Shown here one piece after another: positions 16,585 to 36,933 of a DNA stretch of 46,607 nucleotides. The stretch comes from an uncultured Lachnospiraceae bacterium (GTDB lineage: Bacteria > Bacillota > Clostridia > Lachnospirales > Lachnospiraceae): contig CANQPJ010000017.1 of assembly GCA_947625755.1 (NCBI GenBank), positions 1 through 46,607 of the forward strand. Reading direction: 5' to 3'. The notes below the pieces were generated by a model. It did no database searches and had not been told where the DNA came from. It saw nothing but the letters and a program-made list of their open reading frames with translations. Position numbers and translations under genes: made by a program. Every line of letters begins with the position of its first letter. Position 1 is the stretch's first letter.

Positions 16585-16644
16585 CTTTAGCTTGAGGCAT
16601 TACAGCTTGATTACGTGGCTTTGGCTTTAGCTTGAGGCATTACA
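16585..16644. repeat. Two 20-bp direct repeats at the edge of array A
   Basis: CTTTAGCTTGAGGCATTACA occurs at 16585-16604 and again at 16625-16644, a 40-base period. The second copy runs into the first unit of the 74-bp array (TTACATG at 16640). This suggests a local duplication at the array boundary. Confidence 0.85.
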
Positions 16645-16976
16645 TGTATCTTTTACAAAACAAACTAAATTTATATGTAAATTCTTGGAATATTCATAAT
16701 GAGTGAGAATGTATTACATATATTGTTTGCAAAACAAGCCACGTTTATATGTAAATTTTTGAAAAATCCATAGCAAGTGAGAATAAGCTACATATATTGT
16801 TTACAAAACAAGCCAAATATATATGTAAAATTTTGAGCAATCCACCGCAAAGGAGAATCAATTACATATATCTTTCGCAAAACAAACTAAATATATATGT
16901 AAATTCTTGAGAAATCCATAGCAAGGGAAAATAAATTACATATCTATATAAAATCATAAAATACTAATATATGTAA
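16640..16976. repeat. 74-bp tandem array A, five units
   Basis: Units begin at 16640, 16714, 16788, 16862 and 16936, exactly 74 bases apart. Each unit opens with a 41-bp inverted repeat: TTACATATAT at one end, ATATATGTAA at the other, about 20 bases between. A 33-base linker with conserved core AAATCCATAGCAAGTGAGAA follows. Unit 5 (16936-16976) is divergent inside, sharing CTATATAAAAT and ATAAAATACTAAT with unit 5 of array B. Linkers are conserved, so this is not CRISPR. There is no open frame. The stretch 16977-17079 carries nothing recognisable. Confidence 0.93.
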
Positions 16977-17079
16977 ATATGCCAGAAGAATAAAACTTAC
17001 AGAAGACTGTTCAGAAAATGAAAAGTGTAATTTAAAAACTTGCACTGAAATCAATAATTATCCAACAAATATAGAAAAA

Positions 17080-17115
17080 CAGAACCTGTATCCGCCAATG
17101 CGGATACAGGTTCTG
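17080..17115 (-). terminator. Terminator of gltBD (hairpin P2 of element A)
   Basis: A perfect 16-bp stem (CAGAACCTGTATCCGC and its complement) with a 4-base loop, followed on the minus strand by TTTTTC. It is a strong intrinsic terminator 55 bases after gltD. It is homologous in position and flanking sequence to the hairpin at 36955, with compensatory stem changes. Confidence 0.88.
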
Positions 17116-17121
17116 TCAACC

Positions 17122-17141
17122 GAGGAGCTTTTTACAGCCTC
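17122..17141 (-). other. Hairpin P1 of element A
   Basis: On the minus strand GAGGCT, loop GTAAAA, then AGC and CTC separated by TC. It corresponds to the perfect hairpin at 36995-37012 (GGGACT, same loop, AGTCCC). Two stem positions have changed on both arms, so pairing is kept. It lies between the gltD stop codon and terminator P2. Confidence 0.65.
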
Positions 17142-17169
17142 TTTCTTTTCGTTGCATGGTTTGAACCTG

Positions 17170-18660
17170 TTACAGGTTTGTATATCCCATGAGTGATTCA
17201 TCTACTTCTCTTGCGCAGTCTCTTCCTTCCCTGATAGCCCATACTACCAAAGACTGTCCTCTATGCATATCGCCTGCTGTAAATACATTCTCTGCGCTTG
17301 TAGCATATTTTCCACGCTCTGTTGCAACATTTGTTCTGGAATCTGTGTCTACCTGAAATGCTTTTGTTACATAATTTTCTGAACCCAGAAAACCTGCTGC
17401 AATAAGCACCAGCTGGCAGTCTGTTTCGTATTCTGAACCCTCGATTTCTACCATGTTCAGTCTGCCTGTTTTTTCATCTTTCTTTGCTTCTAATTTTACC
17501 AAAACAAGTTTGCATAAGTTTCCATCTTTATCTTTTACAAATTCTTTTACGGTTGTCTGATATACACGTGGATCCTTACCGAATACTGCAATGGCTTCTT
17601 CCTGACCATAGTCTGTCTTGCAGACTCTCGGCCATTCAGGCCATGGATTGGTTTCCAGTCTTTCATCCGGCGCCTTTGGCATCATTTCCAACTGAAGTAC
17701 ACTTTTTGCTCCATGACGGATGGATGTGCCAACACAGTCATTTCCTGTATCACCACCACCGATGACAACTACATCTTTGCCTTTTGCAGAGATATACGTT
17801 CCATCTTCTAATTTCCCATCATTGTCAAGCAGAGCCTTTGTCGTTGAAGTCAGAAAATCCACTGCAAAATAAATACCTTTTGCATCTCTTCCTTTTGCCA
17901 CAATATCTCTGGCGTTTCTGGAACCGCAGGCAAGAACTACCTTGTCGTATTTCTTTCGTATTTCATTTGCCTTAATGTCTTTTCCTACATCCACACCGGT
18001 GACAAACTTCACACCCTCTTCTTTCATAATATTTATTTTTCTATCAATAATATGTTTTTCCAATTTCATATTAGGAATACCATACATTAAAAGCCCGCCA
18101 ACCCTGTCGTCACGCTCGTAAACCGTCACACTGTGACCTCTCTTATTTAACTGGTCTGCCACTGCAAGTCCGGATGGTCCGGAACCGATAACAGCGACCT
18201 TCTTTCCGGTTCTGACACTAGGTGCTTTTGCAGCACTATATCCTTTATCATAGGCATTTTCAATAATCAGATGTTCATTGGCTCTGACAGATACCGGATC
18301 GCCGTTTAGTCCACATGTACAAGCCTTCTCACAGAGTGCAGGACAGACGCGTGATGTAAATTCCGGAAAATTATTTGTCTTATGAAGCCGGTTATATGCC
18401 TGCTCCATATTTCCCAAATATAACAAATCATTCCATTCCGGAATCAGATTATTGAGAGGACAACCTGAAACCATTCCGGAAATAACCTGACCATTCTGAC
18501 AAAAAGGCACGCCACATTCCATACATCTGGCAGCCTGACATTTCTGCTTTTCCACAGATAGCGGCTCATGGAATTCATTAAAGTTTTTAATTCTTGTTTT
18601 TGGAGAAACAACCTTTGCCTCTTCTCTTTCATAATCTAAAAATCCTGTTGGTTTTCCCAT
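17170..18660 (-). CDS. gltD: Glutamate synthase small subunit
   Basis: The NADPH-oxidising beta subunit of glutamate synthase, 496 residues. An N-terminal ferredoxin-like region with cysteine groups (CQAARCMECGVPFCQNG, GCPLNN, CPALCEKACTCG) holds two [4Fe-4S] clusters. It is followed by a FAD Rossmann loop VIGSGPSGLAVADQL and a NADPH loop VVIGGGDTGNDCVGTS. The C-terminal FTAGDMHRGQSLVVWAIREG is the FAD-binding end. Electrons pass to FMN in GltB. It starts 11 bases after gltB. The last codon and stop lie in the palindrome AACCTGT-T-ACAGGTT (17164-17178). Confidence 0.97.
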   Translation of the reverse strand: MGKPTGFLDYEREEAKVVSPKTRIKNFNEFHEPLSVEKQKCQAARCMECGVPFCQNGQVISGMVSGCPLNNLIPEWNDLLYLGNMEQAYNRLHKTNNFPEFTSRVCPALCEKACTCGLNGDPVSVRANEHLIIENAYDKGYSAAKAPSVRTGKKVAVIGSGPSGLAVADQLNKRGHSVTVYERDDRVGGLLMYGIPNMKLEKHIIDRKINIMKEEGVKFVTGVDVGKDIKANEIRKKYDKVVLACGSRNARDIVAKGRDAKGIYFAVDFLTSTTKALLDNDGKLEDGTYISAKGKDVVVIGGGDTGNDCVGTSIRHGAKSVLQLEMMPKAPDERLETNPWPEWPRVCKTDYGQEEAIAVFGKDPRVYQTTVKEFVKDKDGNLCKLVLVKLEAKKDEKTGRLNMVEIEGSEYETDCQLVLIAAGFLGSENYVTKAFQVDTDSRTNVATERGKYATSAENVFTAGDMHRGQSLVVWAIREGRDCAREVDESLMGYTNL

Positions 18661-18671
18661 TGTAATACCTC

Positions 18672-21600
18672 CTATCTTGTTGCTTCATAGAATGCTTCTA
18701 TCTGTGCCTGTTCCGGATTCAGACCTTTTTGCTCCATTTTGGCAATGGCTTCTAACATTTTCTTGTAGTCATAAGGAATAATTTTCTTAAACTTTGGCAG
18801 ATATGACTCAAAGTTATCTAAAATTTTTCTTCCCTTTACAGAGTTTGTATATTTCACATGCTCCTCAATCATTCCTTTAAGCTCGAGAACATCATATTTA
18901 TTAGATAATTCTTCTGTTGAAACCAGTGATTTATTTGTCTTTCTGTATAAATCATTGTTTTCATCAAGAACATAGGCTACACCGCCACTCATACCTGCGG
19001 CAAAATTCTTTCCGACTTTACCGATAACAGCTACACATCCACCTGTCATGTACTCGCATCCGTGGTCTCCTACACCTTCCACAACTGCTGCAGCACCGGA
19101 ATTTCGTACGCAGAATCTTTCTCCTGCCACACCGTTTATGTATGCTTTACCACTGGTTGCACCGTAAAATGCCACATTACCGATAATAATATTTTCATCC
19201 TGCTTAAATGTTGACCCCTTCGGTGGTTTTACAATAATCTTTCCACCCGACAAACCTTTCCCCAGATAGTCATTACTGTCTCCGGTCAATTCCATTGTCA
19301 TTCCGTTCGGAATAAACGCTCCGAAACTCTGTCCGCCTGCACCATAAGCCTTAACTGTGTACATATCATCATCCAATGTATCGTAATATCTCTTTGTAAT
19401 CTCTGAACCAAAAATTGTACCAAGAGACCTGTCAATATTGCTGACATTTACTTCCACTGTTGCGGCTTTTTTGCTGTCTAATGCTTTCTGTAATTTTGGA
19501 AGAATGACTGTCATATCCTTTGTTTTTTCTAATTCAAAATCATATTCATTCTTTCCGGCGTATTGTACTCTCTCCTGAACAAAATCAGTATTTAAAATTT
19601 TGCTCAAGTCAACCTCTGCTGCTTTCTTTAAGTCTACATTTTCTTTTACTTTCAGCAGGTCAGCACGACCAACCAGTTCATCTAATGTCCGCACTCCAAG
19701 TTTTGCCATATATTCACGAAGTTCCTCTGCTATAAACTTCATAAAGTTCACAACATACTCCGGTTTTCCTTTAAATCTCTTACGCAGCTCCGGATTCTGT
19801 GTTGCAACACCAACAGGGCAGGTATCAAGGTTACATACCCGCATCATAACACAACCCATGGTTACTAATGGTGCTGTGGCAAATCCGTATTCTTCTGCAC
19901 CCAGCATTGCCGCAATGGCTACATCTCTGCCGCTCATTAATTTACCATCTGTCTCTACGACAACTTTATGTCTAAGGCCATTGGCAATCAATGTCTGATG
20001 CGCCTCTGCCAGTCCTAATTCCCAAGGAAGCCCCGCATTATAAATCGAATTTTCCGGAGCCGCTCCCGTACCACCATCAAAACCTGATACAAGAATAACC
20101 TGCGCTCCCGCTTTTGCAACACCTGCCGCAACTGTGCCGACACCTGCTTCCGATACCAGTTTCACGGAGATTCTGGCATCACGGTTTGCATTTTTCAAAT
20201 CATAAATCAACTGTGCCAAATCTTCGATAGAATAAATATCGTGATGCGGCGGTGGTGAAATCAGACTGACACCCGGTGTTGAATATCTTGTTTTTGCTAT
20301 CCAAGGGTAAACCTTCTTTCCCGGTAAATGTCCTCCTTCGCCCGGTTTTGCGCCCTGTGCCATCTTAATCTGCAGTTCTTCTGCACTTACAAGGTATCTG
20401 GATGTAACGCCAAAACGTCCGGATGCCACCTGTTTAATCTTTGAACATTTATTTAAACCGTCTTTTCCAATGGTTAATCTTTCAATGGATTCTCCACCTT
20501 CACCGGAGTTGGAACGACCGCCAATCATATTCATCGCAATCGCCATCGTCTCATGTGCCTCCTGCGAAATAGAACCATAAGACATGGCGCCGGTCTTAAA
20601 CCGTTTCATAATTGACTCGGCACTTTCTACTTCATCAATGGAAATGCCGCCATCTTCCGGATAGTTAAAGTCCATCAATCCACGTAAATGAAATGGTGCC
20701 ATTTCTTCATCTATCATATGGGTATACTGTTTAAACAACTGGTAATTATTTGTCCATGCAGCCTGTTGTAACGTATGAATGGTCGCCGGATTATACTTGT
20801 GCTGTTCCTTTCCGCTTCGAACCTTATGTTCTCCATTACTCTCTAACGTCAAATCTACATCAAGTCCTAATGGGTCAAAAGCCTTCGAATGCAGTTCTTC
20901 CACGCCATCCTCAATGTCCTTCATTGTAATACCCTCTACACGACTGACTGTACCGGTAAAATATTTATCAATCACTTCTTTAGAGATACCTATTGCCTCA
21001 AAAATCTGTGAACCCTGATATGACTGGATTGTTGAAATACCCATTTTTGATGCAATCTTTACAATTCCGCTCAAGACAGCCTCGTTATAATCATCAATAG
21101 CTGCGTATGGGTCTTTATTAATCAATTCTTCCTCAACCATCTGATGAATTGTCTCGTGCGCAAGATAAGGATTAATTGCACTGGCTCCATATCCCAAAAG
21201 CGTAGCAAAGTGATGTACCTCTCTTGGCTCGCCGCTTTCAAGTATCAGAGATAATGTAGTTCTCTTTTTTGTTTTGACCAGATACTGATGCACCGCTGAT
21301 ACCGCAAGAAGTGAAGGAATCTGTACATGATATTCATCCACTCCCCTGTCAGACAAAATAATAATATTCGCTCCATCTTTATGGGCTTTATCTACGTCCA
21401 CAAAAACCTGCTCGATAGCCCTCTCAATGTCTATTCCTTTGTAATAAACAATCGGCACTACTGCTGACTTAAATCCCGGCTTATCAATATTTTTCAGTTT
21501 CAATATATCTGTATTTGTAAGTATCGGATGTCTGATTTTTAATACATTACAGTTCTCCGGCTGTTCTTCCAGAATATTTCCGTCATTACCAATATAAACT

Positions 21601-23219
21601 GCCGTAGACGTTACAATTTCTTCACGTATTGCATCAATAGGAGGATTTGTAACCTGTGCAAATAACTGCTTGAAATAATTAAACAATGGATGGCTTCTTT
21701 CACTTAAAACTGCTAACGGGGTATCCTTACCCATGGCTTTTGTAGCCTCAATTCCATTATTTGCCATTGGAATAATGCGTTTTAGATCCTCAAATGTATA
21801 TCCGAAATTTTTCTGAAGCCTCTGGCGTTCTTCCTTTTTAAATCCATCAACTCTTACATTAGGTATATTAATATCTTTTAGGTAAACCAGATTATTGTTC
21901 AACCATTCACCGTAAGGTTTTCTGGTCGCATAGCTTTCCTTTAATTCGTCATCATCAATTAATTTTCCCTGAACCGTATCAACCAGCAGCATACGTCCGG
22001 GGCGAAGACGTTCTTTGACAACAATTTTTTCTGGTTCAATATCCAGTACACCAACTTCTGACGAAAGAATTAACTGACCATCATCTGTAATGTAATATCT
22101 TGATGGACGTAATCCGTTTCTGTCAAGAATTGCACCCATGTAATCACCATCTGAAAAAAGAATCGATGCAGGTCCATCCCAAGGCTCCATCATTGTTGCG
22201 TAATATTGATAAAAATCTCTCTTGGTCTGCGTAATGGTATCATTCTTTTCCCATGGTTCCGGAATACACATCATAACTGCAAGAGGCAGTTCTACTCCGT
22301 TCATAACCAGAAATTCCAATGTATTATCAAGCATGGCAGAATCAGAGCCATTGACATCAACCACCGGCATAACTTTTTGAAGGGAATTTTGCATATACTC
22401 ACTGCTCATTGACTCTTCACGCGCCAGCATATTATCCGCATTTCCCCGAATTGTATTTATTTCACCATTATGTACTATAAATCTGTTTGGATGGGCTCTT
22501 CGCCAGCTAGGCTGTGTATTTGTTGAAAATCTCGAATGTACCAGCGCAATGGCAGACTCATAATTTTTATCCATCAGGTCTTCAAAAAACGGACCTAACT
22601 GATTTACTAAAAACATTCCTTTATAGACGATAGTTCTACTCGACATAGACACTGTATATGTACCTGCGTTACTATGTGAAAAAACTCTTCTTATAATATA
22701 AAGTTTTCTATCAAATGGCAGTCCCTTTTCTACATCCTCCGGTTTTTTAATAAAACACTGCATGATGCGCGGCATACACTCCAAAGCCTTACTTCCCAAT
22801 ACTTCCGGATGTACAGGTACTTCCCGCCATCCCAGAAATTCAAGTCCTTCTTTTTGCGTAATGATTTCCAGCATCTTCATTTCACGATTACGCTGCAAAT
22901 CATCCTGGGGCATAAAGAACATTCCGACACCATATTCTCTCTCGTCTCCAATGTCCATTCCCAAGGATTTTGTAACTTTCCTGAAAAATTTATGTGAAAT
23001 CTGCAACATAATACCAACACCGTCGCCTGTTTTCCCTTCGGCATCTTTTCCGGCACGATGCTCAAGATTTTCTACAATCTTTAATGCATTTTCTACTGTT
23101 TCATGACTCTTTTTACCTTTAATATTCACAACCGCACCAATACCACAGTTGTCATGTTCAAATCTGGAATCATATAATCCATCTTCTTCCATTTTTTTGA
23201 ATAATACATTCTGTTCCAT
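18672..23219 (-). CDS. gltB: Glutamate synthase large subunit
   Basis: The alpha subunit of NADPH-glutamate synthase (1,515 residues), converting glutamine and 2-oxoglutarate to two glutamates. A 24-residue propeptide precedes Cys25 (DNCGIGAVV), the N-terminal nucleophile of the class II amidotransferase after processing. The central and FMN domains follow (SGFDGGTGAAPENS); CVMMRVCNLDTCP gives the C-x5-C-x4-C [3Fe-4S] site. The C-terminal beta-helix has the usual G-x-x repeats. All key residues are present. AAGGAGGAG precedes the ATG. A 168-base leader with a probable attenuator lies between promoter and start. Confidence 0.97.
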   Translation of the reverse strand: MEQNVLFKKMEEDGLYDSRFEHDNCGIGAVVNIKGKKSHETVENALKIVENLEHRAGKDAEGKTGDGVGIMLQISHKFFRKVTKSLGMDIGDEREYGVGMFFMPQDDLQRNREMKMLEIITQKEGLEFLGWREVPVHPEVLGSKALECMPRIMQCFIKKPEDVEKGLPFDRKLYIIRRVFSHSNAGTYTVSMSSRTIVYKGMFLVNQLGPFFEDLMDKNYESAIALVHSRFSTNTQPSWRRAHPNRFIVHNGEINTIRGNADNMLAREESMSSEYMQNSLQKVMPVVDVNGSDSAMLDNTLEFLVMNGVELPLAVMMCIPEPWEKNDTITQTKRDFYQYYATMMEPWDGPASILFSDGDYMGAILDRNGLRPSRYYITDDGQLILSSEVGVLDIEPEKIVVKERLRPGRMLLVDTVQGKLIDDDELKESYATRKPYGEWLNNNLVYLKDINIPNVRVDGFKKEERQRLQKNFGYTFEDLKRIIPMANNGIEATKAMGKDTPLAVLSERSHPLFNYFKQLFAQVTNPPIDAIREEIVTSTAVYIGNDGNILEEQPENCNVLKIRHPILTNTDILKLKNIDKPGFKSAVVPIVYYKGIDIERAIEQVFVDVDKAHKDGANIIILSDRGVDEYHVQIPSLLAVSAVHQYLVKTKKRTTLSLILESGEPREVHHFATLLGYGASAINPYLAHETIHQMVEEELINKDPYAAIDDYNEAVLSGIVKIASKMGISTIQSYQGSQIFEAIGISKEVIDKYFTGTVSRVEGITMKDIEDGVEELHSKAFDPLGLDVDLTLESNGEHKVRSGKEQHKYNPATIHTLQQAAWTNNYQLFKQYTHMIDEEMAPFHLRGLMDFNYPEDGGISIDEVESAESIMKRFKTGAMSYGSISQEAHETMAIAMNMIGGRSNSGEGGESIERLTIGKDGLNKCSKIKQVASGRFGVTSRYLVSAEELQIKMAQGAKPGEGGHLPGKKVYPWIAKTRYSTPGVSLISPPPHHDIYSIEDLAQLIYDLKNANRDARISVKLVSEAGVGTVAAGVAKAGAQVILVSGFDGGTGAAPENSIYNAGLPWELGLAEAHQTLIANGLRHKVVVETDGKLMSGRDVAIAAMLGAEEYGFATAPLVTMGCVMMRVCNLDTCPVGVATQNPELRKRFKGKPEYVVNFMKFIAEELREYMAKLGVRTLDELVGRADLLKVKENVDLKKAAEVDLSKILNTDFVQERVQYAGKNEYDFELEKTKDMTVILPKLQKALDSKKAATVEVNVSNIDRSLGTIFGSEITKRYYDTLDDDMYTVKAYGAGGQSFGAFIPNGMTMELTGDSNDYLGKGLSGGKIIVKPPKGSTFKQDENIIIGNVAFYGATSGKAYINGVAGERFCVRNSGAAAVVEGVGDHGCEYMTGGCVAVIGKVGKNFAAGMSGGVAYVLDENNDLYRKTNKSLVSTEELSNKYDVLELKGMIEEHVKYTNSVKGRKILDNFESYLPKFKKIIPYDYKKMLEAIAKMEQKGLNPEQAQIEAFYEATR

Positions 23220-23358
23220 GATTCTCCTCCTTTTTTATAGTGCAAAGCAGCAGGTCTGCTTCGTTGCTGTCATATTTTCCAAAAAAAGCACTGAACATAT
23301 AACTTTTCTGGTCTATTACTAATAAAAAAGGGTACAAAAAGACGAATGGTTTTACCAC
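23170..23358 (-). CDS. Possible leader ORF overlapping the gltB start
   Basis: A GTG at 23358 with AAAGGAG four bases upstream opens a 62-codon frame that crosses the 3' arm of the attenuator hairpin and ends inside gltB at 23170. The product (VVKPFVFLYPFLLVIDQ ...) resembles no family known to me and is not rich in Glu or Gln. If translated, the ribosome would open the terminator, and termination would occur past the gltB start. It may be fortuitous; the ribosome-site spacing is short. Confidence 0.25.
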   Translation of the reverse strand: MVKPFVFLYPFLLVIDQKSYMFSAFFGKYDSNEADLLLCTIKKEENHGTECIIQKNGRRWII

Positions 23359-23380
23359 AGTACTCCTTTGCACCCTTTTT
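23325..23380 (-). promoter_or_regulatory. Probable transcription attenuator in the gltB leader
   Basis: On the minus strand AAAAAGGGTGCAAA (5' arm, ending near 23367) pairs with TTTGTACCCTTTTT (3' arm, from about 23338), 14 bp with one G-T pair, followed by a T-run. An inner TGGT/ACCA hairpin lies in the loop. It sits a few bases after the predicted start site and about 105 bases before gltB, so it would stop transcription unless opened. A ribosome-binding site (AAAGGAG) begins within the 5' arm. Confidence 0.65.
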
Positions 23381-23393
23381 ATTTCTACCTAAT

Positions 23394-23422
23394 TTTATAA
23401 ACTATTTTTATTTATTTGTCAA
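23394..23422 (-). promoter_or_regulatory. Promoter of gltBD
   Basis: A perfect TTGACA (23417-23422 as complement), 17 bases, TATAAA (23394-23399). Transcription would start near 23387, giving a leader of about 168 bases. The remaining stretch to rpoD is AT-rich without other recognisable signals. Confidence 0.85.
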
Positions 23423-23518
23423 ACAAAATTAAGTTTAAGTTATAATTTTCCTAATTTATTTAATTTTAACATATTTGTAATATATGAATATTAAATATTA
23501 TATTAACTTAATAAGGCA

Positions 23519-24769
23519 TTATTCCCCTAAAAAGTCTTTTATCTTTTTACTTCGTACCGGATTTCTCAATTTCCGTAAGGCTTTTGCCTCAATCTGTCTA
23601 ATCCGCTCCCTTGTTACGCTGAAAATCTTTCCTACTTCTTCCAGTGTTCTGGGATGTCCGTCCCGCAAACCAAATCTGAGAATGATTACCTCACGTTCTC
23701 TGTCTTTTAAATCCTTTAATAACACATCAATATGTTCGCGAAGCATTACAGATTCTATATTTGCCTCCGGAGTAACAGTATTATTATCTGCCACGAAATC
23801 ACCAAGATTGGAATCGTCCTCTTCTCCAATTGGAGTCTCCAGTGAAGCCGGCTCTCTTGCAATCTGCATGATTTCAAGAACTTTTTCCTCTGACATATCA
23901 AGCGCCTTGGCTAATTCCTTTGTAGACGGCTCATATCCTAATTCCAAAGTAAGTTTTCTCTGCATCTTTGACATTCTGTTAATTGTCTCAACCATATGAA
24001 CCGGCACACGGATTGTTCTGGCATGATCTGCCAGTGCTCTGGTAACCGACTGTCTAATCCACCATGTAGCATATGTACTTAACTTATAGCCTTTTGTATA
24101 ATCAAATTTTTCCACACCCTTTATAAGACCTAGATTTCCTTCCTGAACTAAGTCTAAAAAACTCATACCACGCCCTGTATATCTTTTAGCGATACTAACT
24201 ACAAGACGCAAATTTGCTTCTATTAACTTTTCTTTTGCAATCGGATCACCCTCTGTCTTGCGCTTTGCAAGCTCCAGTTCTTCCTCTGCTGTCAACAAAG
24301 CTACTGTACCGATTTCTTTCAGGTACATACGCACCGGATCTTCTGTTCCCACACCCTCGAGCAAATCTACGGCATCTAATTCTACCGTTTCTTCTTCATC
24401 ATTATCAAAATTCTCGTCTGTGGAATCCAGTAATTCCTCTTCGTCCGCTGCAACAGAAGCAATGTCTTCATCTGTAGGCTCAACAACATCGGTGACTAAA
24501 TCAACTTTAATCTCCACCATTTTTTCGCCATCTTCATTATACATTGCCTCGTCTTCGGCATCTGTACCATCAGAATCTGCCTCATCTTCAGATAATACTA
24601 CAGCAACACCTTTTGCCTGAATTTTTGAAAACAAAGTCGTCTCCTGCTTCGCAGTCAGACTGTCTTCTGCAAAAAATTCCTTGATTTCATCTGTAGTCAA
24701 CTGACCGTCCCTGCTCTGTCCAATTCCAACTAATTCTTCAATTTTCTGATTAAAATCTTGTTGTTTCAA
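23519..24769 (-). CDS. rpoD: RNA polymerase primary sigma factor (sigma-70/SigA)
   Basis: The housekeeping sigma factor. Using the TTG at 24769 it has 416 residues. A region 1.1-like N-terminus ([15 protein letters not shown]) is followed by an acidic stretch of about 90 residues. Region 1.2 [16 protein letters not shown], region 2 ([19 protein letters not shown] ... [17 protein letters not shown]) and region 4 ([18 protein letters not shown]) are all intact. AGAAAGGA seven bases before the TTG decides the start; the longer frame upstream would run through the promoter and terminator. Unusually, dnaG is not next to it; a metal transporter lies upstream and gltB downstream. Confidence 0.94.
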
Positions 24770-24832
24770 TACAGCATCCTTTCTAAAATCGAAACCTGAG
24801 TTTCTTTTTAAGTATCTGTCGGTCCAACATAT

Positions 24833-24860
24833 ATTATACACAAAAAATAGCCGGTGTAAA
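24833..24860 (-). promoter_or_regulatory. Promoter of rpoD, overlapping a terminator
   Basis: TTTACA (24855-24860 as complement), 16 bases, TATAAT (24833-24838). The -35 is exactly the loop of the preceding terminator hairpin, and its 3' arm and U-run form the spacer. The start site would lie near 24826, about 57 bases before the TTG. Confidence 0.75.
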
Positions 24861-24871
24861 CCGACTATTTT
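24844..24871 (-). terminator. Terminator after the CDF transporter gene
   Basis: AAAATAGTCGG, loop TTTACA, CCGGCTATTTT (11 bp, one G-T pair), followed by TTGTG within a T-rich run on the minus strand. It lies 75 bases past the transporter stop and overlaps the rpoD promoter. Confidence 0.85.
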
Positions 24872-24945
24872 AAAAAAATGTGCTATTTTGTTGAAAATCA
24901 CTATATATTATCATTTTTTAGTAACAGCGAAACGTTTCTATTTTT

Positions 24946-25842
24946 CTAGGACGACTTCTTGTGCTGATAACCCGACGGATTGACATGAACTGTACAATGT
25001 TTTACATCCTCAAATTGGTTTTCAATACTGTCATGTACCGTTTCTGCTATTTCATGGGAGCTGCTTAAATTCAAATTGCCATCCGCACTAATTTCCACAT
25101 CCACGTATATTTTTGTGCCGAACATTCTGGTCTTTAATAAATCCAGTCCCTCTACGCCTTCTGTTTGTAAAATCAACGCTTTTATTTTATCAACTGTTTC
25201 CTCATCACAGGCTTTATCAACCATTTTATCAACAGCCTCTTTTACAATATCATAGGATACTTTGATAATAACCAATCCGATTACACATGCTATAATAGGA
25301 TCCAGTATCTTTACTCCCAGCATTGCTCCGGATACACCAATCAAACTGCCAATGGACGACAATGCATCCGACCTATGGTGCCATGCTTCTGCACGCAATG
25401 CATCCGAATTGATTTTATCTGCGGATATTTTGGTATACCAGTACATTCCTTCCTTTACAACAATAGAAACGATTGCAACGATTAAGGCAACCGTTCCGGG
25501 AGTGCTGATGTTTGCTCCGCTTATAACTTTTTTAATTCCTTCATATATAAGAAGGGCTCCTGTGGTAAACAAGATGGCTCCAAGGGCAAGGGATGCCAGA
25601 CATTCCAACCGGTCATGTCCGTATGGATGGTCGCTGTCTTCTTTTTTTTGTGACATTTTTACACCAATAATTACAATAAACGAGCCAAACACATCCGATA
25701 AAGAATGAATTGCATCTGACAGCATCGCCATCGACCTTCCAAAAATACCTGCTAGCAGTTTTAACAAACTTAATATTATGTTTAAAATAATACTAACTGA
25801 CGAAACTTTAACCGCCGTCTTTACTACATTCTGATTATCCAT
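24946..25842 (-). CDS. Cation diffusion facilitator family metal transporter
   Basis: A proton-coupled exporter of zinc, iron, manganese or similar divalent metal, 298 residues, six hydrophobic segments. The metal site is built from HSLSD in the second segment (SDAIHSLSDVFGSF) and HHRSD in the fifth (AWHHRSDALSS), the typical DD/HD pairs. A cytoplasmic domain of about 90 residues ends the protein, with SSHEIAETVHDSIENQF and CTVHVNP as family signatures. The metal is not decided by sequence. It follows two genes on the same strand. Confidence 0.94.
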   Translation of the reverse strand: MDNQNVVKTAVKVSSVSIILNIILSLLKLLAGIFGRSMAMLSDAIHSLSDVFGSFIVIIGVKMSQKKEDSDHPYGHDRLECLASLALGAILFTTGALLIYEGIKKVISGANISTPGTVALIVAIVSIVVKEGMYWYTKISADKINSDALRAEAWHHRSDALSSIGSLIGVSGAMLGVKILDPIIACVIGLVIIKVSYDIVKEAVDKMVDKACDEETVDKIKALILQTEGVEGLDLLKTRMFGTKIYVDVEISADGNLNLSSSHEIAETVHDSIENQFEDVKHCTVHVNPSGYQHKKSS

Positions 25843-27555: not shown

Positions 27556-27567
27556 ATGATTGTCTCC

Positions 27568-28059: not shown

Positions 28060-28081
28060 TGAGTTAATAAAAATATATTTT

Positions 28082-29902: not shown

Positions 29903-31784
29903 CTGCCTCACTCCCCTCTGTGTAATACTGCGCCTGAACATGATACATATGGGCATACTTGCCTGCTTTCTCCATCAATTCGTCATGGGTACCCAGCTCT
30001 GCAACTGCCCCATCTTCAAATAAGACAATCTGGTCGCAAAAACGGGTACTGGACAATCTGTGAGAAATAAATATAGAAGTTTTTCCCTCAACCATCTTAT
30101 TAAATTCCTGATACATTTTATCTTCTGCCAATGCATCCAGCGCCGCTGTAGGTTCATCCAGTACGATAACACTTCTGTCCTGATACAGCGCTCTCGCCAT
30201 AGCCAGACGCTGTCTTTCTCCTCCCGACAGGTCAATGCCTTTTACGTCAAAAATTTTCAATAACTGGGTTTCTACTCCCTTTTCAAGTTTTTCTATTTTT
30301 TTATCTAAACCACTTCTCTCTAATGCATAATTCACAATATCCATGTCGGTATCTTCACGCTCTCTCATAGATACATTCTCCCAAATAGGATAAGAGAACA
30401 CTTCAACATTTTGAAACACCGGTGCAAAAATTTTCTGATAGGCTGTTCTATCATACATTTTTACATCTGTTCCATTTAAAAGGATTCTTCCTTTTGTCGG
30501 TTCATAAAGCCGCATTAACAATTTGGTCAATGTAGTCTTTCCTGCGCCGTTGATACCTACAATAGCCAGTTTCATCCCGGCTTTAATGGTCAAATTCAAA
30601 TTTTTTAACACGAATTTTTCATGCCCTGGATATCGGAAAGAAACATTTTCAAATGTAAACTCATACCCTTCTAAATGAATATCTGTAATTGTTCCTTCCT
30701 TCTTTTCTGCATCCGGTTCGTCTTCCTTCCAATCCATAAACGTTCTGAAATCGTCCATTTGCATCTTGTTCATATTCATCCAAACCAGATTTGCAAACAA
30801 ATCGGAGGTAGCTACAGAAAAAGTTTCCACAAGACCTATGTATAATACAAAATCAGAAATACTCATTCCCCGCTCAAAAACCATATAAATCAGGGCGGAA
30901 TAGAGGAGGACATTTTGAATCAACCGGTAAGTACTCATCCGGACTTCGCTCATAATCCATCCATTGTGATGCCAATTACATGCTTTGAAAAATACAGTAT
31001 TAATATCCTTCCAGATTTTCTCAATCCAGTTTGCCATACCAAACAACCGTATATCCTTGGCGAAATTAAAATCTCTTGTGGTCTGCGCCAGATAATAGTG
31101 CTTGCGCCAATTTCCTTCCATGACATCCCTGAATTCTCTTTTTCCCCATTCCATCGTATTATTAAATTCCTTATATCTGATAAAAGACAGTAAAGCAAGA
31201 ACCACTACTAGCAGTGGATGAATAAATACAATGGCAGCTCCTGCCAGAACCGTTGTCAGAAAGTGACTTGTAGCGTCTTTCATTCGCATACAGTACCCGT
31301 GAAATCCTGCCCCGTAATATAATGCGCGTTTTGCTCTGTTGGTTAAATCCAGAAAATCGGGATTTTCCATATTTTTAAAATCTGTTGTAAAAACTTTATT
31401 TAGATAAGAACCCATCAGCTTATATTGAACTTTGTCAAATCCGTAATCACCTGTTACGTCTAATTTTTGAATAATCAGCCCCATAACAAGCATAATCACT
31501 CCTACCAAAGATAAAACAATAATCATCTTTTTCACTGTGACACCCATGGAAACCATTTCCAATGCAATTTTAGGTAAATAGACGCCAATCAGCATATTCA
31601 ATGCCGAAAAGATACCAAATGCCAGTATCACAATAATAAATACTTTATTATATTTCCATGATGTTTTGATGGCATAGATAAAATTATTAATCATACCATA
31701 TTTATGTGATTGGATTCCCTGAAATTCTTTTTCTTCTTTCTTCCTATCAAACAATTTCCTGATTTTACTTAAAATGTTCTTCAT
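29895..31784 (-). CDS. ABC exporter half-transporter (permease-ATPase), first subunit
   Basis: A 629-residue half-transporter with six membrane segments and a C-terminal ATPase. It has Walker A GINGAGKTTLTK, a canonical signature LSGGERQRLAMARAL, Walker B VIVLDEPTAALDAL and H-loop FISHRLSS. It pairs with the overlapping downstream gene, the usual arrangement for heterodimeric exporters of antimicrobial peptides or drugs. No peptidase domain is present, so any precursor would not be cleaved by this protein. The HTH gene lies 57 bases upstream on the same strand. Confidence 0.93.
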   Translation of the reverse strand: MKNILSKIRKLFDRKKEEKEFQGIQSHKYGMINNFIYAIKTSWKYNKVFIIVILAFGIFSALNMLIGVYLPKIALEMVSMGVTVKKMIIVLSLVGVIMLVMGLIIQKLDVTGDYGFDKVQYKLMGSYLNKVFTTDFKNMENPDFLDLTNRAKRALYYGAGFHGYCMRMKDATSHFLTTVLAGAAIVFIHPLLVVVLALLSFIRYKEFNNTMEWGKREFRDVMEGNWRKHYYLAQTTRDFNFAKDIRLFGMANWIEKIWKDINTVFFKACNWHHNGWIMSEVRMSTYRLIQNVLLYSALIYMVFERGMSISDFVLYIGLVETFSVATSDLFANLVWMNMNKMQMDDFRTFMDWKEDEPDAEKKEGTITDIHLEGYEFTFENVSFRYPGHEKFVLKNLNLTIKAGMKLAIVGINGAGKTTLTKLLMRLYEPTKGRILLNGTDVKMYDRTAYQKIFAPVFQNVEVFSYPIWENVSMREREDTDMDIVNYALERSGLDKKIEKLEKGVETQLLKIFDVKGIDLSGGERQRLAMARALYQDRSVIVLDEPTAALDALAEDKMYQEFNKMVEGKTSIFISHRLSSTRFCDQIVLFEDGAVAELGTHDELMEKAGKYAHMYHVQAQYYTEGSEADV

Positions 31785-31841
31785 AACTTCTCCTTATCAT
31801 TATTTATCCATTTTCATATTATCAGATATGATTCTTTCATA

Positions 31842-32240
31842 CTACTCTTTAAATGGCTTTTCTCCCAATTCCTTCAGTAATTGATTTACCTCACAAACCT
31901 TACAGACGCCTGCATCTAAAGCATACACCACTGTAAGATCCCGCTGACTGTTTGACGAAAAACTATACCCTGATACCTTAAGTAATTCTCTTGCCTCCCT
32001 TGAATTTAATTTTAAACAAATACAAACAGCCAGCGCAGTATCTTTTGAAGGATGATAGTTGCAGTCGGCAATAAATTTCGATATCAGTTTTCTGTCTATT
32101 CCTGCGTTTTCGCTCAGCTCACTGGTGCTGATATTATTTTTATATAAATATTCATTAACAATATTTCCAAACTTTCTTCTGTCGAGATTTTGATGAATAA
32201 ATTCTGACAAACCTTCGCAATCATATTTTGTATGACTCAT
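31842..32240 (-). CDS. XRE-like helix-turn-helix protein
   Basis: A 132-residue protein with a central Cro/CI-like HTH: FGNIVNEYLYKNNIS, then TSELSENAGIDRKLISKF, and a helix ending in AVCICLKLNSREARELL. The C-terminal part (VYALDAGVCKVCEVNQLL) contains a CxxC pair. An in-frame start at 32270 exists, but AGGAGAGG about nine bases before the ATG at 32240 favours MSHTKYD. It directly precedes the exporter pair and may control it. Confidence 0.82.
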   Translation of the reverse strand: MSHTKYDCEGLSEFIHQNLDRRKFGNIVNEYLYKNNISTSELSENAGIDRKLISKFIADCNYHPSKDTALAVCICLKLNSREARELLKVSGYSFSSNSQRDLTVVYALDAGVCKVCEVNQLLKELGEKPFKE

Positions 32241-32311
32241 TTTTCTGTTCCTCTCCTGTGTTTTGTACAATAATCCGTTTGCTTTTTAAAGCCTGTTTTG
32301 GCAAAGAAAAA

Positions 32312-32337
32312 GCGATTTAGGGATAATCCTAAATCGC
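32312..32337 (-). terminator. Terminator of the 48-codon unit
   Basis: GCGATTTAGG, a 6-base loop and the exact complement, followed by TTTTTC on the minus strand. It lies 46 bases after the stop of the small ORF and about 70 bases before the HTH gene. A smaller hairpin GCACGA/TCGTGC (32356-32372) precedes it. Confidence 0.88.
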
Positions 32338-32382
32338 ATAATATACATCTATACTGCACGATTTATTCGTGCCAAAAATCTG

Positions 32383-32529
32383 TCAGAAAGCCTCATCCGA
32401 CAATGTCAGCCTCCCGGAGTTACAAAATGGCACGCACCCTATCTGTCTTGCGAACATATTTCCTGTATGCTTCAAATCACATTTTACAATATAAAAATGT
32501 TTCGTATCATTGGCTGATAAAGCTCGCAT
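32383..32529 (-). CDS. Possible 48-residue microprotein with three cysteines
   Basis: An ATG at 32529 with AAAGGAG eight bases upstream opens 48 codons to TGA at 32383. The product begins MRALSANDTKHFYIVKCD, contains Cys17, Cys32 and Cys36, and ends SGRLTLSDEAF. It has a promoter about 40 bases upstream and an intrinsic terminator after it, so it forms a complete unit of about 260 bases. No signal peptide or double-glycine leader is seen. I recognise no family. It could instead be a structured small RNA whose frame is accidental; the good ribosome site favours translation. Confidence 0.55.
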   Translation of the reverse strand: MRALSANDTKHFYIVKCDLKHTGNMFARQIGCVPFCNSGRLTLSDEAF

Positions 32530-32570
32530 TTTGTATTCTCCTTTCTACATTATTTACATCTCATGGAAAA

Positions 32571-32599
32571 AGTATAACACACCCTTTTCATGATAACAA
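32571..32599 (-). promoter_or_regulatory. Promoter of the 48-codon unit
   Basis: TTGTTA (32594-32599 as complement), 17 bases, TATACT (32571-32576). The predicted start near 32564 gives a 35-base leader with AAAGGAG. Confidence 0.7.
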
Positions 32600-32712
32600 T
32601 CCAAAATATGAATTGTCGCTTTGAAAGCGAAAAAAGGCTTTTCTGCTTATTCATAAAATATATTTCTTATAGCAAACCTTTTTTGCACACTGCATATAAT
32701 ATATTAAAAACT

Positions 32713-33213
32713 ATGGATTTCACAATGATGAACTGCAAACAAAATTTTTTAGATATTATACAATATTCTTATCCTGATGCCTACGCTAATATCTATGGAA
32801 ACGACCAGTATCCATGTCTAAAAGGAATGGCTCGATTCTATAGCACCTCATATGGCGGAACCCTTGTGGAGGTAGAAGTATATAATCTTCCTCTTTTGTC
32901 AGACACTTCTCCAAGTTCCTTCTATGGTATGCATATACATGAAAACGGAGACTGTACTCCGCCTTTCGACAAGACCGGCGACCATTATAATCCATGTAAT
33001 ACCCCTCACCCTATGCACGCCGGCGATATGCCTGCGCTTCTGGGAAATAATGGATATGCTTACTCTGTATTCTACACAGAACGGTATCAGCCGGACAATA
33101 TCATCGGACGTTCCATTATTATTCATTCACATGCAGATGATTATATGACAGAGCCTTCGGGTAATTCGGGCAAAAAAATTGGCTGCGGAATAATTAAGAG
33201 GTATTGTAGGTAA
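32713..33213 (+). CDS. Cu/Zn superoxide dismutase family protein
   Basis: A cytosolic protein of about 166 residues with the SOD1 fold; no signal peptide is seen. All metal ligands of the family can be placed: HIH (GMHIHENGDC), HYNP, HP, HAGD and IIIHSHADD. The disulfide cysteines are in GDC and GCGII. In GNSGKKIGCG the arginine that guides superoxide in typical enzymes is Lys. The start is uncertain: no Shine-Dalgarno precedes the ATG at 32713 or the ATG pair at 32725. An open frame extends to 32590 but overlaps the divergent promoter. Activity is plausible, not certain. Confidence 0.85.
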   Translation: MDFTMMNCKQNFLDIIQYSYPDAYANIYGNDQYPCLKGMARFYSTSYGGTLVEVEVYNLPLLSDTSPSSFYGMHIHENGDCTPPFDKTGDHYNPCNTPHPMHAGDMPALLGNNGYAYSVFYTERYQPDNIIGRSIIIHSHADDYMTEPSGNSGKKIGCGIIKRYCR

Positions 33214-33228
33214 CACTACAATACCTCT
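33197..33228. terminator. Hairpin between convergent genes
   Basis: A perfect 13-bp stem AGAGGTATTGTAG / CTACAATACCTCT; the stop codon of the SOD-like gene lies in its 6-base loop. It is followed by TTATCATTT on the plus strand and lies eight bases past the DUF1846 stop on the minus strand, so it may serve both genes. Confidence 0.75.
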
Positions 33229-33235
33229 TTATCAT

Positions 33236-34726
33236 TTACTGTTTATGATATTTTCTATCGTTCTGTTCATATTTTGGTTCACAAGTCAGCTGAATCCCCA
33301 GCTTTTTTATAGTCTTTTCATCAATAGATGATAAAAGAACCGTGGAATGTGCATCACAGCCTTTTAAAAGCGGTATCTGTTTCATCGCATGTTTGGCGTT
33401 CTCATTATGGGAGGCTGTAGCTGACAATGCAATCAGTATTTCATCTGTATGAAGCCTTGGGTTTTTACTTCCCAGATAATTGGTTTTTAATGTCTGTATC
33501 GGCTCAATCGCCTCCGGAGTAATCAGTTTAATATCATCATCAATATTTCCAAGAGATTTCAATGCATTTAAAAGCGCTGCTGCCGAAGCGCCCAACAAAT
33601 CTGTCGTACGTCCGGTTACAATTTTTCCATCAGGAAGTTCTATTGCGGTTGCCGGCTTGTTCTCTGTTTTCTTTTCTTTTTCAATGGCAGCTACTGCAAC
33701 AGCCCTATCCTTCAATGTAATGCCTGCCTGTTTCATTAAAATTTCCAGCTTGGATATGTTATCCTTTGTCGTTCCCTTACGCCTTTTTTCACAAAGAGCT
33801 TTGTAATACCTGCGGATAATTTCCTGCTTTGAGGCTTTACAGCATACTTCGTCATCAAAAATACAATTTCCTGCCATATTTACACCCATATCGGTTGGTG
33901 ATTTGTATGGACTTTCCCCAAAAATCAATTCAAACATTGCATTGACCACAGGAAAAATTTCAATATCTCTATTATAATTAACACTGGTCTTTCCATATGC
34001 TGAAAGATGGAAAGAATCAATCATGTTGACATCATTTAAATCTGCTGTAGCTGCTTCGTAGGCAAGATTAACCGGATGTTCAAGCGGTATATTCCAGATA
34101 GGAAAAGTTTCAAACTTGGCGTATCCTGCATCTACTCCTCTTTTATGTTCATGGTATAACTGGGAAAGACACGTAGCCATTTTTCCACTGCCCGGACCCG
34201 GTGCAGTAATGACAACCAGCGGTCTTTCTGTCTCAATATAATCGTTTTTCCCATATCCCTCGTCACTTACAATATAATTTACATCACTTGGGTATCCCGG
34301 TATTTTATAATGTCTGTATGACTTAATTCCCAAGGACTCTAATCTCTTCTGAAACAACTCTGCTGCAGGCTGTCCGGCAAACTTTGTTAGGCAGACACTT
34401 CCCACAAACAATCCAACAGACTGAAACTCATCAATTAACCTTAAAACATCCATGTCATAGGTTATGCCATAGTCGCCTCGTACCTTGTTTTCCTCAATAT
34501 GCTCTGCATTGATTACAATAACAATTTCTGCTTTATCTTTTAGCTGCAACAGCATCTGTAGTTTTGAATCCGGCTCAAATCCCGGCAGCACTCTGGATGC
34601 GTGATAGTCATCAAACAATTTTCCGCCAAACTCAAGATAAAGTTTATTTCCAAACTGTGCAATTCTTTCATTAATATGCTCTGACTGCATTTTTAAGTAT
34701 TTTTCGTTATCAAATCCTTTTTTCAA
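33236..34726 (-). CDS. DUF1846 domain-containing protein
   Basis: A 496-residue protein recognised as DUF1846, a Bacillota family of unknown biochemical role and nucleotide-binding appearance. GFDNEKYLKMQSEHI is the usual N-terminus, ITAPGPGSGKMATCLSQ resembles a phosphate loop, and AGNCIFDDEVCCKASKQEI is conserved. The most likely start is the TTG at 34726, with GAGG nine bases upstream, giving MKKGFDNEK as in homologs. ATG codons at 34741 and 34786 are also in frame. It follows the pyrophosphatase gene after about 37 bases and is probably co-transcribed. Confidence 0.88.
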   Translation of the reverse strand: MKKGFDNEKYLKMQSEHINERIAQFGNKLYLEFGGKLFDDYHASRVLPGFEPDSKLQMLLQLKDKAEIVIVINAEHIEENKVRGDYGITYDMDVLRLIDEFQSVGLFVGSVCLTKFAGQPAAELFQKRLESLGIKSYRHYKIPGYPSDVNYIVSDEGYGKNDYIETERPLVVITAPGPGSGKMATCLSQLYHEHKRGVDAGYAKFETFPIWNIPLEHPVNLAYEAATADLNDVNMIDSFHLSAYGKTSVNYNRDIEIFPVVNAMFELIFGESPYKSPTDMGVNMAGNCIFDDEVCCKASKQEIIRRYYKALCEKRRKGTTKDNISKLEILMKQAGITLKDRAVAVAAIEKEKKTENKPATAIELPDGKIVTGRTTDLLGASAAALLNALKSLGNIDDDIKLITPEAIEPIQTLKTNYLGSKNPRLHTDEILIALSATASHNENAKHAMKQIPLLKGCDAHSTVLLSSIDEKTIKKLGIQLTCEPKYEQNDRKYHKQ

Positions 34727-34763
34727 TTTTACTAACCTCATTCGTATATTTTTAATATCTTTT

Positions 34764-36407
34764 TTACTGCTCGCCCTGTAAAACATTCATCATTGCAGGA
34801 ATTAACTGTTTCTTTCTGGATACGATTCCCTGCAGGACACATGCGCCATCCTCAATATTCATGCCAAAAGCATTTCGGATAACATCCGCCGTACCTTCGC
34901 CATAACAAATCAAGTCCGTGGATTCGTCTAATATATTCGTAAGCATAAAGAATACCATCTGTACGCCATGTTTCCCACATTCATACTGGAGGTGAGGAAC
35001 CAGCCGTTCCTTAATCATCTGTAATTCGTCCGATGCCATGGAACTAATCTGTCCCACACCAAAAACAACGTCTCCGGCAATAAATTTCTTAAAGTCCTGA
35101 TAGAAAATTTCCTCTGTCGTCTTTTCCGACAAATTGCTTCCTGCTTTAAACATATCTGCTGCAAATTTTTCTATGTCTATTTCTGCAATGCCTGCCATTT
35201 CCCTCGCTACCATCTGGTCTAATGATGTACAGGTAGGGGAACGAAACAACAATGTATCCGAAAGAATTGCCGCGCATAACAATCCCGCAATATCCTTTGG
35301 AACTTCTACACCCTTTTCCTGATACATCTGTCGCACAATAGTCGCCGTACAGCCTACCGGCTGATTTCTGAAAATAATTGGATTTTTCGTTTCGATTGTG
35401 CCAATTCTATGATGATCCACAATTTCAATAATATCTGCCTGCTCAATATTGTCTACAGCCTGCGACAATTCATTATGATCCACCAGAATAACTCTCTTTT
35501 TTTCAATATTTAAAAAGTTTCTGCGGGATACTGTTCCTACATATTTCCCATTTTTATCCAAAATCGGAAAGTTTCTAATCCTTGTCTTTCCCATAACAGT
35601 TTTTATTTTATCTGTAAAATCATCCATATGAAACGTAATCAGATTTTCCGACACCATAAGTGCCCTGACCGGCATACTCTGTTCAATCAATCTGGCTATC
35701 GCAAAGGAATCATGGGAAGTTGAGATTATAACGGTATTCTTTTCCCGCGCACAGCTTTTAACACTATCAGAAACCGGAACATCCATTCCAATTACAATGC
35801 AGCTTGCCTGCATTTCTATCGCGTTTAACTGGTCTTCCTGCCTGTCGCCAAGAATAACCAAATCGCCCGGTTCAATATATTTCTGTACAAGAAGGGGATT
35901 TGCTGCCCCAATCAATACCTTTCCTTTAAAAAATACGGAATTTTCATCTCCTACTAATATTTTACCATCCAGCGTCTCTGCAATATGTTTAAAGGGAGTA
36001 TGCGCCTCGGACAAAGATGACGGATTATGCTGCATCATATTATTGGTAATATCTGACATGGAGATAATGCCTTCGAGATTATTTTCATCATCTGTCATCG
36101 GTAATGTAATTGCATTGTTTTTCTGCATAAATTCCCATGCTTTTTTCACGGTAATCTCTTTTGACATTCCCGGCAGATGCCTGATTTCCATATCTTTCAC
36201 CTGTGTTCCCACATTTGGCATATAAGCCGGAGTCTGGGCGTTAAAATATTTTAAAACATATTCTGTCTCTTCATTAATCTGTCCTGCCCTTTTTGGTATA
36301 TATTTTCCTTCTTCTGTGTTGTTTTTCAAATATGCCAATGCAATGGCTGAACATATGGAGTCTGTATCGGGATTTTTATGCCCAATAATGTAACTTCTTT
36401 TCTGCAT
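34764..36407 (-). CDS. Putative manganese-dependent inorganic diphosphatase with CBS and DRTGG domains
   Basis: A DHH-family phosphoesterase of 547 residues that splits pyrophosphate. IIGHKNPDTDSICSA at the N-terminus and VDHHRIG hold the metal-binding Asp and His residues. Between them lie a CBS pair split by a DRTGG domain (residues about 70-300), which in related enzymes senses adenine nucleotides. A DHHA2 domain ends the protein. AAAAGGAG precedes the ATG. The promoter lies about 40 bases upstream, and repeat array B lies upstream of it. Confidence 0.93.
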   Translation of the reverse strand: MQKRSYIIGHKNPDTDSICSAIALAYLKNNTEEGKYIPKRAGQINEETEYVLKYFNAQTPAYMPNVGTQVKDMEIRHLPGMSKEITVKKAWEFMQKNNAITLPMTDDENNLEGIISMSDITNNMMQHNPSSLSEAHTPFKHIAETLDGKILVGDENSVFFKGKVLIGAANPLLVQKYIEPGDLVILGDRQEDQLNAIEMQASCIVIGMDVPVSDSVKSCAREKNTVIISTSHDSFAIARLIEQSMPVRALMVSENLITFHMDDFTDKIKTVMGKTRIRNFPILDKNGKYVGTVSRRNFLNIEKKRVILVDHNELSQAVDNIEQADIIEIVDHHRIGTIETKNPIIFRNQPVGCTATIVRQMYQEKGVEVPKDIAGLLCAAILSDTLLFRSPTCTSLDQMVAREMAGIAEIDIEKFAADMFKAGSNLSEKTTEEIFYQDFKKFIAGDVVFGVGQISSMASDELQMIKERLVPHLQYECGKHGVQMVFFMLTNILDESTDLICYGEGTADVIRNAFGMNIEDGACVLQGIVSRKKQLIPAMMNVLQGEQ

Positions 36408-36445
36408 TCAACTTCTCCTTTTTATTTTTGAACAAACTTATTTTT

Positions 36446-36474
36446 ATAATAGCATTTTTTTATTACACAAACAA
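36446..36474 (-). promoter_or_regulatory. Promoter of the diphosphatase gene
   Basis: TTGTTT (36469-36474 as complement), 17 bases, TATTAT (36446-36451). Farther upstream is a run of seven T then eight G on the plus strand (36561-36575). Confidence 0.6.
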
Positions 36475-36596
36475 TAAAAAAGGACAACACAACAGGAATT
36501 TTTAATAGTAAAGATAGAATAATGCAATTTCCTGATAACAAAAAAACGGAGTGTAAAAAGTTTTTTTGGGGGGGGATACATGATGGTGGGAAGGAA

Positions 36597-36933
36597 TTAC
36601 ATATATTTTGAGGAAAACAAGTCAAATATATATGTAAATTCTTGGGAATCCATGATGGGTGAGGAAGAAATTACATGTATTTTGGGGAAAACAAATCAAA
36701 TATATATGTAAATCTGTGGGAAATCCCTAACCTGTGAGAATCAATTACATATTTGCTTTGCAGAACAAACCAAATTTATATGTAAATTCTTGAAAAATCC
36801 ATGATGGGCGAGAATCAATTACATATATTTTGGGGAAAACAAATCAAATATATATGTAAATTTTTTCAAAATCCATAGCAAGTGAAAATATATTACATAT
36901 CTATATAAAATTATAAAATACTAATATATGTAA
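36597..36933. repeat. 74-bp tandem array B, five units
   Basis: Units begin at 36597, 36671, 36745, 36819 and 36893, exactly 74 bases apart, as in array A and in the same orientation. Each has a 41-bp inverted repeat (TTACATATAT / ATATATGTAA) and a 33-base linker ending GAGAATCAA or similar. Units 1, 2 and 4 share TTTTG(A/G)GGAAAACAA in the centre. Unit 5 is the same internally divergent variant as in array A. Both arrays are 337 bases long. No open frame is seen. Confidence 0.93.

Follow-up and report, generated by a model that had tools for sequence, protein, structure and literature searches.

What are two arrays of the same build, each with five inverted-repeat units, doing some 20 kb apart on one contig of a gut bacterium? 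We examined a stretch of 46,607 nucleotides (the window), which is contig 17 of the genome of an uncultured Lachnospiraceae bacterium (host genome G000; 2.25 Mb in 51 contigs). Unit starts at 16640, 16714, 16788, 16862 and 16936 in array 1, and at 36597, 36671, 36745, 36819 and 36893 in array 2, advance by exactly 74 bp, and Tandem Repeats Finder (TRF) returned a period of 74 for both; the first-pass annotation of this DNA was thus right to describe five-unit arrays with a 74-base step. It had also described unit 5 as the same divergent variant in both arrays, and these two copies differ at one of 41 bases. Its 41-bp inverted repeat stands for the outer arms of 8-10 bp, which are palindromic, and falls for the inner 21-25 bp, which are not self-complementary. 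The window arrays are no special pair; they are two members of a genome-wide family in the host. On balance, and with moderate confidence, we interpret the family as an IS1182-type miniature inverted-repeat transposable element (MITE) that carries a terminator and a phased array for a putative binding protein.

Spacing was scored between exact half-sites (TTACATAT/ATATGTAA), scanning gaps of 0-60 bp. At the host's own loci the gap within a unit was 25 bp in 171 of 195 cases, and the gap between units was 33 bp in 160 of 172, 31-36 bp in 170 and 23 bp in two. Four other species provided 43 fetched stretches, 42 with cores and one (L156) without; here the within-unit gap was 25 bp in 58 of 81 cases, and the 58 between-unit gaps were 33 bp (36 cases), 34 bp (14), 32 bp (one), 23 bp (six) and 21 bp (one). 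No between-unit gap of 24-30 bp or above 36 bp was found in either set. Allowing one mismatch per half-site raised the host count at 33 bp to 181. The deviant class of 21-23 bp is about one helical turn shorter and directly precedes the closing unit wherever that unit is recognisable; it may have descended from few events. Centre to centre, half-sites are separated by 33 bp within a unit and by 41 bp from one unit to the next, and therefore the 74-bp period comes to about seven helical turns and would leave all sites facing nearly the same side of the helix, the spacing being observed and the facing computed at 10.5 bp per turn.

The host units have diverged by 0.228 per site. For every substitution they show 0.068 indel events, a ratio that rises to 0.382 in the stretch following the closing unit and to 0.326 over the 48 bp that lead up to unit 1. 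The units compared were picked by a spacing of 60-80 and a 41-bp core of fixed length, a choice that favours few indels; the half-site scan is free of this bias. This contrast, together with spacing that is kept in relatives with widely different spacers, upholds the selection on spacing that had been claimed from the two window arrays. A plain selfish minisatellite within a MITE, comparable to BrickBuilt or BOX, would owe its constant length to slippage and recent amplification and have no binding function. Near-identical units in some relatives' arrays (G012:C62 and G013:C139) speak for such an origin, as does the argument, made for BOX, RUP and SPRITE in the available sections of PMC3049150, that insertions are best tolerated at gene 3' ends. 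We nevertheless consider it unlikely: the host's own units diverge by about 0.23 per site and hardly at all in length while adjacent parts of the element behave otherwise, exact half-site gaps are confined to 21-23 and 31-36 within the range 0-60, and the half-sites, conserved at 0.983, are retained even in a closing unit whose interior is unlike that of the others.

That figure is the mean consensus of the half-sites over 181 regular units, in which the loop reached 0.811 and the spacer 0.697. The spacers are thus themselves repeats and not unique, in agreement with the view that this is no CRISPR array (no cas gene search was made). The loop of the closing unit (24 units) agrees with the regular loop at 10 of 25 positions, and its half-site pairs equal the consensus in 191 of 192 cells. 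Among the 47 changed cells of the eight array-arm pairs, 32 were broken, 13 wobble and 2 compensatory; the 29 changed cells of the right-end hairpin (28 copies) comprised 15 broken, 7 wobble and 7 compensatory. Because compensatory changes number 2 of 47 in the array against 7 of 29 in the hairpin, the comparison suggests that the array is recognised by its sequence and that the hairpin forms a paired stem.

The same comparison bears on an account at the level of RNA, in which the array would give a transcript of successive hairpins whose role is to protect or regulate the 3' ends of mRNAs. RNA from the plus strand of array 2 folds better than shuffles (z -4.0), as does that from the minus strand of element 2 with its hairpin (z -9.0), and in sister species the arms differ between arrays yet remain complementary. 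In the TTACATAT family, however, the arms change one-sidedly, and the compensatory changes are those of a true hairpin only at the right end. Moreover, RNA has no need of a period in whole turns of B-DNA, and the terminator-like hairpin on the minus strand would halt the transcript of the right-hand gene ahead of the array. We judge the RNA account to be less probable still than the minisatellite.

Returning to the MITE with a phased array, its copies in the host are numerous and modular. Matching array 1 to the host genome gave 74 match pieces, and the fetched stretches (43 own loci examined) contained 42 arrays of at least two units, with 2 to 11 units each, into which 228 of the 230 recognised cores fall. 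The inner gap of the cores was 25 bp in 205, 24 bp in 16 and 26 bp in 9. Of the two kinds of variation that the first-pass annotation had set against its own proposal, unit number does vary between copies and spacing is nearly constant. The start of contig 13 and the end of contig 5, and likewise the start of contig 40 and the end of contig 42, share identical stretches of 87 and 77 bp; because these stretches lie at contig ends, each pair is probably two halves of one array, giving about 40 arrays. The count may also be low, as a diverged copy in contig 13 (L161), which is a complete member of a diverged subfamily with both ends present, was found solely through its terminal repeat. The pattern ATATGTAA-N33/34-TTACATAT occurs at 175 places in the host genome and the closing-unit variant at 23 (up to 3 mismatches), with none in the reversed control of either.

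The copies listed have a common order of modules: left end, units, closing unit, variable stretch, GC hairpin and right end. The left end (GGGACTGTAAAAAAAGTTTTTGTCAAGCTGCC) sits about 80 bp ahead of the first unit, and the tip of the right end (CTAATCAGGGACTTTTTACAGCCCC) is the inverse of the left-end tip. At tighter cut-offs the left end was found in 15, the right end in 21 and both in 8 of the 42 loci (0 and 0 in shuffled flanks), and the hairpin was recovered in 28. Elements are shorter than about 1 kb, with no recognised transposase between their ends. Two minimal forms were also seen: one of 109 bp in host contig 22 (L162, 14772-14880), with IS1182-type ends, a single half-site and no array, and another of about 100 bp in G008:C6 (L199, ~1425-1520), with IS1182-type ends and the hairpin alone inside.

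The terminal repeat AAAAGGGGCTGTAAAAAAAG and a hairpin by each end are common to the element and to IS1182-family insertion sequences of the genus. The insertion sequence partner was read in another genome, G013, rather than in the host; at this locus (L203) the terminal repeat, with 2 mismatches, and the hairpin are followed by an IS1182-type transposase frame. Its product matched the IS1182 model NCBIfam NF033551 (E 8.5e-70, 236 bits) and exceeded the cut-offs of Pfam DUF772, DDE_Tnp_1_6 and DDE_Tnp_1. In G007, an IS1182-type transposase tail adjoins an end of the other type. A protein search recovered the full 530-residue frame in G013 and pieces at contig edges in G010 and G007, with no match at E 1e-20 in 19 of the 23 genus genomes. 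Since the ends of the element are those of the IS1182 family, it is best described as MITE-like and non-autonomous, with the insertion sequence transposase as its probable mover; the IS1182 origin rests on ends and layout, and movement by that enzyme is inferred. The ends also favour the intergenic mobile repeat among the roles first suggested for the arrays; the suggested protein-binding array would fit the data as well. With up to 2 mismatches the terminal repeat is present in 14 of 23 genus genomes, the reversed control matching in 6, and in several of the 14 the sole match is a common site, AAAGTGGCTGTAAAACAAG, which is seemingly unrelated. At 0-1 mismatch it is present in 6 genomes of the genus, and many of these matches sit at contig ends, a location that would fit identical copies collapsed in assembly. 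In G010:C105 (L237, 80-548), GTGTACCC half-sites form a 65-bp array situated some 20 bp beyond an IS1182-type end.

A REP/BIME-like array worked on as single-stranded hairpins by a tyrosine transposase (RAYT, IS200/IS605-type) would account for tandem palindromic intergenic units and for half-sites that depend on the species as REPs do (PMC2817692, in the parts available), but it is very improbable, and RAYT/REP identity was set aside, given ends that indicate a DDE-type IS1182 element, loops of about 25 bp and scarce compensatory change (2/47) unlike REPs, and a gapped host assembly with no intact RAYT, whose sole Y1_Tnp match (PF01797 search) is a fragment in a 60-residue frame with one stop.

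The GC stem and T-rich tract at the right end face a gene 3' end and have the make-up of an intrinsic terminator, which would read on the minus strand in both window elements. Orientation was assessed with simple gene calls in the 42 loci, 39 of which were usable per side and 3 uncalled. Of the right-hand genes, 34 of 39 have their 3' end towards the hairpin (33 of 38 without L007, which was judged by hand), against 20 of 39 left-hand genes that face the element by their 3' end (Fisher p 0.0012). Copies that are dispersed and oriented toward gene 3' ends do not support the segregation site that had been suggested. All 27 hairpin places in the host genome (up to 3 mismatches) adjoin arrays by coordinates, so that no solo hairpin was found among them. 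Flanking frames were compared all-against-all and recurrent groups were found; ten proteins from five of these groups, scanned with Pfam, comprised ABC transporters, surface or cellulase-type proteins, phosphofructokinase and NlpC/P60, with two unmatched and no transposase among the ten. A constant gene beside the array was considered and not upheld in the annotated flank groups. The flanks of seven relatives' arrays were judged by eye on the first 80 residues.

We propose that the IS1182-family transposase of the genus probably mobilised the element, and that its right-end hairpin would act as a terminator for the gene that faces it with its 3' end, as sequence, position and pair changes suggest. 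The interior consists of inverted 8-bp half-sites in an array that can expand, and a putative DNA-binding protein would occupy them cooperatively to give a nucleoprotein structure by the terminator. The closing unit, with both half-sites kept and a different interior, may serve as a cap module.

Several observations weigh against this interpretation, among them the folding of array 2 RNA given above. In the one-mismatch scan, 23 of the host's between-unit gaps fell outside 21-23 and 31-36, with 13 in the reversed control. Even at loose cut-offs the left end was recognised in 20 and the right end in 26 of the 42 loci, and no target-site duplication was visible by eye in the flanks of the copies. 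The G013 transposase, with 479 residues of its 530-residue frame searched, scores below the curated IS1182 cut-off of 270 bits. The best transposase match in the host is a distant fragment of 31% identity with two stops, and the host's own insertion sequence copies are visible solely as contig ends. Finally, the arrays of G012:C62 and G013:C139 have no such ends in the flanks inspected, and several G014 copies bear other flanking modules. Because relatives' arrays can thus be found without recognised ends or with other modules, the array module may predate the MITE or exist independently of it.

Across a sample of 397 genomes of the family, the pattern occurs at many places in the host alone (175); the single matches in 10 of the other 396 were taken as chance, the reversed control giving one match in each of 5 of the 397, as were single matches in Periweissella and Dictyobacter. 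Within the genus, TTACATAT arrays were found in 5 of 23 species, at 175, 17, 15, 10 and 8 places (none in any control), so the repeat is not confined to this locus and relatives carry it too. Conserved positions are weak evidence of function: relatives yielded 42 core-bearing stretches, 10 of them single-core, and 6 of the 42 lie at the same gene end as an array of the host (judged by hand), against a rough expectation of 2-3. Two other arrays were noted in these genomes. A second period-74 array, of unrelated GC-richer sequence and with no inverted repeat, adjoins a TTACATAT array in G002:C51 (L125, 1-329), and a 66-bp tandem array of near-identical copies in G014 (L183, 1635-1878) has an inverted repeat not above chance.

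The arrays may belong to a wider class. Six sister species without TTACATAT arrays were surveyed in 40 stretches (785 kb; TRF period 40-100), a non-random sample, as the contigs of G004, G007, G008 and G010 were picked because earlier matches had named them. TRF found 17 arrays, 11 of them outside long genes (two of the 11 in frames judged spurious, 116 and 149 residues long). In seven of the 11 an inverted repeat exceeds the level of shuffles (p < 0.05); their periods are 53, 63, 54, 65, 53, 64 and 62, and their half-sites differ. G007 and G008 have a common half-site, TACGAAT, at period 53. The eight periods fit a helical turn of 10.5 bp best in a scan of 6-20 (p 0.0002), with 10.0 and 11.0 nearly equal, and all 11 arrays, with the period of 74 left out, give p 0.009 at 10.5; this statistic was devised once the data had been inspected, its null is a crude uniform one, and it is a lead, not a test. 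Several results tell against a wider class: three of the 11 (L228, L237 and L283:13424) were known beforehand, and without them 5 of 8 pass; two of six arrays in longer frames also reach p < 0.05, both in one frame of 1200-1500 residues (L290); none of five other tandem arrays passes in the carrier species of TTACATAT arrays; and 300 kb from other genera held two arrays, one passing. We therefore suggest only tentatively a genus-wide class in which half-sites vary among species and arrays while the inverted geometry is kept, as is a period of five, six or seven turns (53/54, 62-65, 74). This would imply a family of rapidly evolving DNA-binding proteins that each have a phased array of their own; a MITE would then have captured one such array and carried it to some forty gene ends. 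If confirmed, the class would offer a series for the study of protein-site co-evolution.

Table 1. Features of the two window elements and their neighbouring genes.
Feature	Position	Strand	Remark
Array 1	16640..16976	+	Five 41-bp inverted half-site units, 74-bp step; closing variant in unit 5 (16936-16976)
Array 2	36597..36933	+	Five 41-bp units, 74-bp step; closing variant in unit 5 (36893-36933)
GC hairpin and T-rich tail, element 1	17079..17115	-	Predicted intrinsic terminator for the minus-strand gene with its stop at 17170
Right terminal inverted repeat, element 1 (CGAGGAGCTTTTTACAGCCTC)	17121..17141	+	Right-end match, 6 edits
Probable left terminal inverted repeat, element 2 (GGAGTGTAAAAAGTTTTTT)	36548..36566	+	Read by eye; unmatched in the left-end search
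GC hairpin / predicted terminator, element 2	36951..36987	-	Compensatory pair change against the family consensus
Right terminal inverted repeat, element 2 (CCAGGGACTTTTTACAGTCCC)	36992..37012	+	Right-end match
GFO/IDH/MocA oxidoreductase gene	15522-16496		Neighbour of array 1
Pyridine-nucleotide oxidoreductase gene	17170-18660		Neighbour of array 1; probably the small subunit of glutamate synthase, because it adjoins the large glutamate synthase gene
DHH/CBS/DRTGG protein gene	34764-36407		Neighbour of array 2
AMP-binding enzyme gene	37047-38648		Neighbour of array 2

The left end of element 1 was not recognised in the left-end search. At its expected site, CTTTAGCTTGAGGCATTACA occurs twice in direct orientation (16585-16604 and 16625-16644), the second copy extending into the first unit of array 1; it looks as if a local duplication cost the element this end. 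Promoter-like matches in the two window array regions were not above shuffles. An Rfam 15 scan of the window gave no family at gathering score except one tRNA, whose gene lies at 6389-6460 on the minus strand.

The element offers natural evidence of selection on helical-turn spacing, and the array could therefore be used directly as bait for the putative binder. By bringing to gene ends a mobile terminator combined with a predicted protein-binding platform, the element could influence transcript boundaries or the structure of the nucleoid in its gut-dwelling host. Our literature search, in which subscription journals were thinly covered, found no prior description of the element. MITEs with internal tandem arrays are already known, and the nearest designs found were BrickBuilt and BOX (PMC4596501 and PMC3049150, each as described in the sections available). 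The BrickBuilt MITE of Porphyromonas gingivalis, with 19 copies in one genome, always intergenic, resembles the element in its leader, variable number of tandem repeats, tail and small inverted-repeat ends; it differs in host and in its 23-bp units without spacers, and the parts describing it do not mention half-sites or helical geometry (PMC4596501; sequences uncompared). BOX of Streptococcus pneumoniae is likewise modular (boxA-boxB-boxC) and MITE-like, with distinct ends and a middle that is absent or repeated, and is over-represented between convergent genes; unlike the element, it is treated there as an RNA fold, and phased half-sites are not described in those parts (PMC3049150; compared by description alone). 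SPRITE of the same species is a dispersed repeat resembling a Rho-independent terminator near gene 3' ends, as is our element, but has no array (PMC3049150). REP/BIME sequences have regularly spaced palindromic units, mostly extragenic and species-specific in sequence, and are bound by gyrase, IHF and DNA polymerase I; they are RAYT-linked, with palindromes kept by complementary mutations, whereas the element has IS1182-type ends (PMC2817692, same limit). IHF sites within MITEs are named in the accessible part of a MITE review (PMC10969869). From IS1182-family insertion sequences themselves the element is set apart by the lack of a transposase and the presence of an array. What seems new beside these systems is an array of phased inverted half-sites with conserved geometry.

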